NCBI GenBank assembly: GCA_026416535.1
Contig: JAOAFA010000104.1
Span: 1 to 64,000, forward strand
DNA: 64,000 nt
DNA from: Deltaproteobacteria bacterium
GTDB lineage: Bacteria > Myxococcota > SpSt-1050
Reading direction: 5' to 3'
A program made the position numbers and the translations under genes. Shown here piece by piece: positions 12,509 to 15,174 of the stretch. The number at the start of each line of letters is the position of its first letter. Position 1 is the stretch's first letter. A model generated the notes under the pieces. That model was not told the origin of the DNA, did no database searches, and worked only from the letters and a program-made list of their open reading frames with translations.

Positions 12509-14410
12509 TCACCTCTTAACCAACTTTTCGAGTTCCTCTATTCTCCTAGTAAAAATATTGAATGCCTCCTCATAAGGTTCTTTAGACATCATATCAGCAC
12601 CAGAGCGCCTTAATAGCTCAAGTGGATAATCTGAAAATCCGCCTTTCAATAGGTTTTCTACGTACTCCTTGCGGGCATTCTCTCCTTCTCTAAGGACCCT
12701 TTCACTTAGATACAGAGCAGCAATATATCCCGTAACATACTTATAGACATAGAAGTTGTAGTAAAAATGGGGAACATACGCCCATTCAACGGCATATAGG
12801 TCATCTATTTTAACTACCCCTTTCGAATCACCATAGTATTTTTTCAAAAGTTCAAGATAAGTCTTGTTCAAAAAATCCGCCGTAATGGGTTCTTTGTTTT
12901 CTGCAGATTTGTATATATTATACTCGAATTCTGAAAACATCGCCTGTCTAAAAACAGTGGTACGCATTGTTTCAAGAGATTCTCCTAAAAGGATCTTCCT
13001 TTTTGTAATGTCCTTTTCTTTTGATAGCATGTAATTTAATAGCAGATTTTCATTGAAGGTAGATGCTACTTCTGCAACGAAGATAGGATAATTAGCTTTA
13101 GCAAATGGCTGAGTCTTATTGGAATAGTATGAATGCATTGCATGACCAAGTTCATGAAGCATCGTGGAGACAGAGTTATAATTGTCGTTGTAGTTTAGTA
13201 GCATATAGGGATGGACATCGTAGTGATCACCAGTCATATAGGCACCAGATCTTTTTCCTCTATTTGGATAGACATCAGTCCATCCACTTCCAGGGCTCAG
13301 GGCCTCAATAGCAATTTTGACATATTCATCTCCCATAGGCTTAAGTGTTTCACCTGCTATTTTTACTGCCTCTTCATACGAATATGTATCTTGAATACCC
13401 GTTGTAATAGGTGCATAAAGGTCATAATATCTAAGTTCACTTAGACCAAGAATTTCTTTCTTCAGTATCAAGTATCTGTGTAAAACATTAAGATTTTCAT
13501 TTATCATCTTTATAAGATTTTCATACAATTCGACAGGGATGTTTTCATAGAATATAGAGGCCTCAAGGGCCGATTTATACCTTCTCGTCTTTGCATAAAA
13601 TATATTGGCATCAATCTGAGAGGCAAGAGATTGGGCAAGTGTATTCTTGTATTTCATGTAAGTAGAGAAAAATTCAACAAAGATCTTTTCTCTGTCACTC
13701 CTTATTGTGGACTCCCTATACTTGGTGTAGTTAGCCTGGTTGAGTTGGACCTTTTCTTTTGTAGAGAGTTCTACCTCTGGGAAATTTAGCTCTCCTCCAG
13801 TAAATGCCGAATATATGTTATACCCTGCACTCGCAAAAGTAGCAGTTCGTGCAAGGAGCTCCTCCTCTTTCCTTGATAGAATGTGAGACTTTTTCCTCAA
13901 TAAGTTCTTTAGAAACATATCATAGTCTTTGAAATCTTTGTGGGATATAAGTTTCTTAATAGTTGCTTCAGGAAGAGAAATAAGTTCGGGTTCAATAAAA
14001 GCCGTTGCCTCTCCAAAGTCAGCAGAGACCTTCTCCGCTATAGATTTAAGTGCCAATGTCTCAGAGACCCGCGTGTCTTGATCATAGGACATCATTGCAT
14101 AACCACTAATACGGTATAGTTTGTGCATTAACTTAAAATATAGATCAAGCACCTTCTTTATGTCTTCAGTCTTCTTGAGTTTACCCTTATACTTCTCAAA
14201 TTCTTTTAAGTTATTTAATATAAAATCCTTATCTTTTCTCCACTCCTCGATATTTTTATAAAGATGCGTCAGATCCCATTTATACTTAGAATCTATCTCA
14301 CTCCTTTCTTTTATTTCACCCTTTTTCATAATAGGTCCTCCTTGTTGATAGGCTGCTATCAAAATGATTGCGATGATGAAAACAAAAAACGAAAGACTAA
14401 TTCTATTCAC
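12509..14410 (-). CDS. Oligoendopeptidase F (M3), with dual starts
   Basis: Up to 633 residues. It is a zinc metallopeptidase of family M3: HELGHAMHSYY holds the HExxH pair, and the downstream glutamate lies in FVAEVASTFNE. Members cleave short oligopeptides. Two starts each have a full Shine-Dalgarno. GTG 14410 (AGGAGG, six-base spacing) gives a signal-peptide-like N terminus, LSFFVFIIAIILIAAY. ATG 14329 (GGAGG, seven-base spacing) gives a soluble protein starting MKKGEIKERS, which matches the normal cytoplasmic PepF N terminus. The gene may therefore make an exported and a cytosolic form. It has its own promoter candidate upstream and is followed by 115 bases before the GroES-like gene. Confidence 0.9.
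   Translation of the reverse strand: MNRISLSFFVFIIAIILIAAYQQGGPIMKKGEIKERSEIDSKYKWDLTHLYKNIEEWRKDKDFILNNLKEFEKYKGKLKKTEDIKKVLDLYFKLMHKLYRISGYAMMSYDQDTRVSETLALKSIAEKVSADFGEATAFIEPELISLPEATIKKLISHKDFKDYDMFLKNLLRKKSHILSRKEEELLARTATFASAGYNIYSAFTGGELNFPEVELSTKEKVQLNQANYTKYRESTIRSDREKIFVEFFSTYMKYKNTLAQSLASQIDANIFYAKTRRYKSALEASIFYENIPVELYENLIKMINENLNVLHRYLILKKEILGLSELRYYDLYAPITTGIQDTYSYEEAVKIAGETLKPMGDEYVKIAIEALSPGSGWTDVYPNRGKRSGAYMTGDHYDVHPYMLLNYNDNYNSVSTMLHELGHAMHSYYSNKTQPFAKANYPIFVAEVASTFNENLLLNYMLSKEKDITKRKILLGESLETMRTTVFRQAMFSEFEYNIYKSAENKEPITADFLNKTYLELLKKYYGDSKGVVKIDDLYAVEWAYVPHFYYNFYVYKYVTGYIAALYLSERVLREGENARKEYVENLLKGGFSDYPLELLRRSGADMMSKEPYEEAFNIFTRRIEELEKLVKR
14337..14341 (-). promoter_or_regulatory. 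Internal Shine-Dalgarno for the short oligoendopeptidase form
   Basis: GGAGG on the minus strand, seven bases before ATG 14329 and inside the signal-peptide coding part of the gene. It equals the site before the outer start in strength, so it decides between two protein forms. Confidence 0.6.
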
Positions 14411-14453
14411 AGTAAACCTCCTAAATAGTTATTGAAGGAATAACCACCATAAA

Positions 14454-14481
14454 AATATAATCAATATTTTACTTTGAGCAA
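14454..14481 (-). promoter_or_regulatory. Probable promoter of the oligoendopeptidase gene
   Basis: On the minus strand TTGCTC (14476-14481) and TATATT (14454-14459) are separated by 16 bases, about 45 bases upstream of GTG 14410. The spacing fits sigma70-type promoters, but the -35 box is only a partial match. Confidence 0.35.
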
Positions 14482-15174
14482 GGAAATTTTGCTAACTGTG
14501 ATCATTATTTTGTAGAGAAATCCCGCCATGGCCGATAGGGAAGCCCAGTTTTTATGAGTGGTAAAAAGACCTTCTCTATTCCTCTCTTCTATCGAAAAAA
14601 CTTAAAGTTCTCCTTCTTATATACTATGAATTTTCAAACTATCTATCTCTGCCACAGGTGTCTTTAATCTTCTTTCAAAAAATCTACTCCTACATCCCCA
14701 TCTTCATAACAAAACATAGTTCTCTCTTCTAAAAAGGGCCATTTTTACACCTTCTATAGTCTCGGCTTTCAAGTACTTTCTTTTGTTGGAATAGTGTTTA
14801 ATTTGTTTAAGGTTTTGTAATAGTGTTTCCATACCTGCTTTCATAGTCTATGTTTTTGGTGTTTAGGATAATATTGTGAGAGTTTAATATGTTGTTGAAT
14901 TTTTAGAGTTCACTTTCTCCATTTTTACCTCATCTTCCAGAGCACACACAGTTTCTATTAATACTAACTTTATGTGTAGATTAATTTCCCTCTCTTCGAC
15001 AGTTAATACATAAAGTATTAAAGGATATAAAAATAAGACACCGCATATAAAATTTGTAAAGGCACAAAGAGAAACTTGCGATGGTATAGATGAGTATAAA
15101 AGACCTATTATCTTGTGTTTTTACACCGATAGGGAGCTTAGGTATAGCGTACTTTGCCAATCAACCCATATATT
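14482..15174. other. Gene-free stretch with a decayed minus-strand trace
   Basis: No intact gene. On the minus strand, ATG 14844 opens 46 codons (MKAGMETLLQNLKQIKHYSN...) to a stop at 14704. The same frame then continues with only three more stops toward about 14520, with protein-like pieces such as RRLKTPVAEIDSLKIHS and TTHKNWASLSAMAGF. This looks like a gene that has decayed by nonsense mutations. I cannot name the family. Bases 14850-15174 show nothing recognisable. Confidence 0.35.

Follow-up and report, generated by a model that had tools for sequence, protein, structure and literature searches.

The gene for an oligoendopeptidase on the reverse strand of the window, i.e. the whole stretch of 64,000 nucleotides analyzed here, raises the question of whether a single open reading frame specifies one protein with one cellular address or two proteins with different addresses. 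It can be read from a GTG at position 14410, yielding a protein of 633 aa with an N-terminal leader (12509..14410), or from an ATG at position 14329, yielding one of 606 aa with the canonical PepF N terminus (12509..14329), both readings ending at the stop at 12509. Direct reading of the DNA places the two codons in frame, 27 codons apart in the same ORF, and bears out the Shine-Dalgarno (SD) sequences that a sequence-only reading had assigned to them: AGGAGG (14417..14422) lies 6 nt from the GTG with a duplex energy of -10.9 kcal/mol, and AAGGAGG (14337..14343, with the GGAGG at 14341-14337) lies 7 nt from the ATG with -11.4 kcal/mol. Throughout, SD strength is given as the energy of the duplex with the anti-SD in kcal/mol. 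Both elements are partly paired in local RNA structure predictions, which counts against dual initiation. A scan for a promoter between the two starts returned fewer promoter-like sites than shuffled sequences, and a second promoter there was accordingly rejected. An Rfam search of the whole window yielded no match to any RNA family. The approximately 760 bases upstream of the gene (14411-15174) are devoid of ORFs of at least 80 aa, as well as of Rfam matches.

The product is identified as oligoendopeptidase F by its family score and zinc site, and is predicted to cleave oligopeptides. It scores 579.3 bits against the TIGR00181 pepF profile (curated cut-off 490.55), matching positions 1-591 of the 591 in the model, and displays the Pfam M3 and M3_N domains, with the peptidase M3 domain proper (PF01432) spanning 12557..13717 (residues 232-618 of the long form) and the HExxH motif of M3 peptidases being readable as HELGH at 13142..13156. 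These features, namely the score above the cut-off, the HELGH motif and a canonical N terminus at the internal methionine, are common to it and the known oligoendopeptidases F (TIGR00181, MEROPS M3B; structures 3ce2 and 2qr4). When compared with the solved structure 3ce2, the long form shows similarity from residue 29 onwards, one residue past the internal methionine; hence, the short form corresponds to a normal PepF, as had been proposed from the sequence, and the extension is an addition. Whereas the classical PepF is leaderless, the version in the window has an additional leader besides the internal start. Its plasmid-borne homologues are mostly firmicute pepF genes with less than 60% identity. 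The extension, MNRISLSFFVFIIAIILIAAYQQGGPI, combines a positive residue near its start with a hydrophobic core, small residues and polar residues, in agreement with the earlier view that the GTG start adds a signal-peptide-like leader. The leader itself, MNRISLSFFVFIIAIILIAA (14351..14410), owes this label to a simple hydrophobicity criterion and to visual inspection, and the latter also points to possible cleavage after Ala20 (IAA/YQQ).

The sequence-only reading had itself put forward a check, in that relatives with only one of the two starts would refute it. We ran this check on a genome of the same genus (G001, 89% identity), one of the same order (G002, 53%) and further genomes of the phylum, mostly draft assemblies, and it did not refute the proposal: in the closest relatives, neither start and neither SD has been lost. 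A leader followed just past its end by an in-frame ATG with an SD is encoded in G001, G002 and seven genomes of f5, another family of the phylum, at about 42-89% protein identity. G001 has ATG at both starts, SDs of -11.6 and -11.4, and MTRISLILLIVTGIILSAAYQQGGTS before the internal methionine; both starts are kept even as 12 of the 27 aligned leader codons differ in amino acid between the two genomes of the genus. In G002 the leader ends in AAFG and is followed by EKEVV, with the ATG placed behind AAAAGGAGG. The linkers of the seven f5 genomes (SGEEK, AGEDA, KTEAN, GEEKGAK, AKEKS, SGEVWE and QEGK) each encode an SD-like word. All ten dual-start genes have an SD at the leader start (-5.3 to -11.6); those at the internal ATG range from -7.4 to -12.3 in G002 and the f5 genomes, and the internal SD is the stronger of the two in seven of the ten. 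Its spacing is poorer in two relatives, being short in G002 (L004) and long in G005 (L008). As the linkers are unlike each other and nevertheless all encode an SD before the ATG, it is simpler to assume selection acting on the RNA. The same-genus genome L032 (DYEF01000110.1) was deposited as 'Bdellovibrio sp. isolate Tomsk_43_40', a name that looks doubtful given that its relatives are presumably Myxococcota.

How often such an arrangement arises by chance was gauged in a background sample of about 1.04 Mb of stretches from these genomes, which holds 98 ORFs with a signal-peptide-like start and an SD. Any ATG past the hydrophobic core is present in 31 of these, and an ATG with a properly spaced SD of -7.4 or better in three, including pepF itself, i.e. 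about 2 of 97 others, one of the two looking like a misplaced start. Finding ten of ten at this rate would naively have a probability of about 1e-17, or about 1e-5 when only three independent lineages are counted; these values are to be read with the fact that -7.4 is the weakest value among the ten and that the ten genes were picked out by the dual-start feature itself. A fair count is 10 dual rows out of the 14 in the clade, the ten constituting all its leader-bearing single-copy genes. Interior ATG codons in the sampled ORFs of the window's genome have a properly spaced SD of -7.4 or better in 2.2% of instances and one of -9 in 0.7%; for interior ATG codons more generally the former figure ranges from 2.2 to 5.1%. 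Apart from pepF, sampling of the window's genome turned up a single gene resembling a dual start: a 485-aa ORF (L072 17686, G000:C14) that opens with a lipoprotein-like leader and whose codon 27 is an in-frame ATG preceded by GGGAG (-7.7). The argument that a second SD in the right place is improbable has two sides. Taken alone, the element is less improbable than had been claimed: Gly-Gly written as GGA-GGN yields GGAGG, random synonymous recoding of YQQGGPI matches the observed strength in 24% of trials, and codon choice lends weak support to selection on the internal SD. What stands is that ten related genes combine a leader with the ATG and the SD, far above background. Chance formation of the SD from GGA-GGA codons is plausible for a single gene, and we reject it for the clade on account of the background and the unlike linkers.

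A broader form of the same idea holds that PepF is only secreted and that a linker rich in glycine, glutamate and lysine, of a composition shared by the relatives, mimics a start together with the methionine that follows it. The codons for these residues do easily form SD-like words, and synonymous recoding across the dual-start genes retains the SD in 17-71% of trials, indicating that the amino acids often permit it; the pairing of ATG and SD in all ten genes, set against the background rate, and the differing linker sequences speak against this explanation, which we regard as improbable. Slightly better placed, and the main rival, albeit still unlikely, is the proposal that the internal SD programs a ribosome pause past the leader that aids engagement of the export machinery, with only the exported form being made. 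Early SD-like elements have indeed been tied to elongation pauses in the targeting of membrane proteins in E. coli (PMC4359368), and pepF shares with those cases an early SD-like element in a Sec-targeted protein, positioned after the leader in 10/10 genes. However, a pause has no need of a start codon, and the pepF genes always have one at initiation spacing, whereas any ATG at all in that region is seen in only the above-mentioned third or so of the background ORFs; moreover, the sister PepFs with leaders are without the SD. The conserved ATG hence argues, as far as sequence can, against a targeting pause as the sole role of the element.

The opposite simplification, that ATG 14329 is the only start, that GTG 14410 is incidental, as is its SD, and that PepF is purely cytosolic, agrees with the canonical N terminus at this ATG and with an SD at least as strong as that of the GTG. 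Against it, all ten genes keep a hydrophobic leader whose start has an SD of its own, and leaders are the rule among the sister PepFs of the phylum; we hold this reading to be very improbable. We instead favor, with good if incomplete confidence, two initiations on one pepF mRNA that would supply both an exported and a cytosolic enzyme.

All ten dual-start rows fall in one clade of the tree (support 87/93), which unites f1+f2 (100/100) with f5 (100/100). The four f5 rows lacking the dual arrangement belong to two genomes: in G014, L012 is a pepF that lacks a leader and has a strong SD, and L025 is part of a secreted tandem protein without an internal ATG; in G026, L014 and L026 are likewise parts of such tandem proteins, and the secreted kind of pepF is the only one found. 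These exceptions within the clade fit dual addressing. Given its leaderless pepF alongside a secreted tandem pepF with no internal start, G014 appears to have divided the two addresses between two genes. Rows of the sister clades mostly encode a leader and lack an internal ATG bearing an SD; what is listed as a match there is either the leader start itself, the only start of a gene lacking a leader, or, in L028, one GTG. The idea that a leader was fused on recently and left an older start behind was also considered, and we rejected it because the clade is deep and the sister genes already have leaders. The tandem proteins (L026 and L014 in G026:C278; L025 and L129 in G014:C81) are of approximately 1250 aa with a leader; their first domain reads HEVGN or HELGN where HExxH would be expected, and the second domain retains HEFGH. 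The first half has thus lost the second zinc histidine and probably has no zinc peptidase activity.

The M3 peptidases of the window's genome bear on what the short form might contribute. Besides the single PepF, the search found one further M3 gene, on contig C65 (L132, G000:C65:16449-17435), coding for about 570 aa behind AGGAGG and a lipoprotein-like leader, MSRDLISLSILFLFFLGC. As this second protein starts with such a leader, the short form of PepF would be the sole cytosolic M3 peptidase; were only the long form made, this search would find no cytosolic M3 peptidase at all. A similar lipoprotein-like M3 gene is present in G026 (L130).

Eukaryotes offer well-known cases of genes that serve two addresses through alternative initiation, and few bacterial examples are known to be conserved across families. 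The closest precedent is the arginine decarboxylase gene speA of E. coli, where an in-frame internal start cuts away 26 aa containing the secretion signal to give a cytoplasmic rather than a periplasmic isoform, with internal initiation having been observed by Ribo-RET and INRI-seq (PMC9825163). The pepF gene shows the same design at a nearly equal distance (26 aa versus 27 codons), with two in-frame starts with credible ribosome-binding sites, a signal-peptide-like segment between them and both starts retained in ten genes of one clade; it differs in encoding a different enzyme and in that its initiation is predicted from sequence and conservation. In Salmonella, ribosome profiling has revealed pairs of proteoforms with and without a signal peptide, among them those of OmpX, PagC and YfhG (PMC11005335). 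The production of both forms from one gene is common to these and to the pepF proposal, but in Salmonella the products are outer-membrane proteins or a lipoprotein, whereas PepF is a soluble enzyme that we propose to be active in both places. We found no report of a two-start PepF in the literature searched, where coverage of subscription journals is thin. The design, alternative-start isoforms, is thus a known one that would be new here for PepF and that comes with broad conservation.

Both starts and both SDs exist in this gene and are kept across a clade of relatives above background. From this we infer the use of both starts, the cleavage of the leader and the roles of the products. Initiation at GTG 14410 would give a preprotein that the leader directs to Sec export, and leader cleavage would leave the enzyme outside the inner membrane; initiation at ATG 14329, by ribosomes bound to the internal SD, would give a leaderless enzyme that stays in the cytosol. 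Of the membrane or exported form envisaged alongside a cytosolic one in the sequence-only reading, the pair as such is supported as a prediction, and the leaders end in small residues, as at signal peptidase I sites, which favors an exported form with a cleavable leader over a membrane form. The recurrence of two well-formed starts in divergent relatives suggests that the same enzyme is probably present on both sides of the inner membrane, where it may serve in peptide scavenging outside and peptide turnover inside. As only a few residues at the N terminus would distinguish the mature forms, one gene would provide two compartments with the same activity in peptide degradation, and an annotation choosing one start would hide half of its likely output. 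It is also conceivable, at somewhat less than even confidence, that dual addressing of PepF was ancestral to the clade and that a duplication in G014 resolved it, leaving one gene for the cytosol only and a tandem gene, devoid of the internal start, for secretion only. If so, G014 would represent a natural experiment in the division of a two-address gene into two one-address genes.
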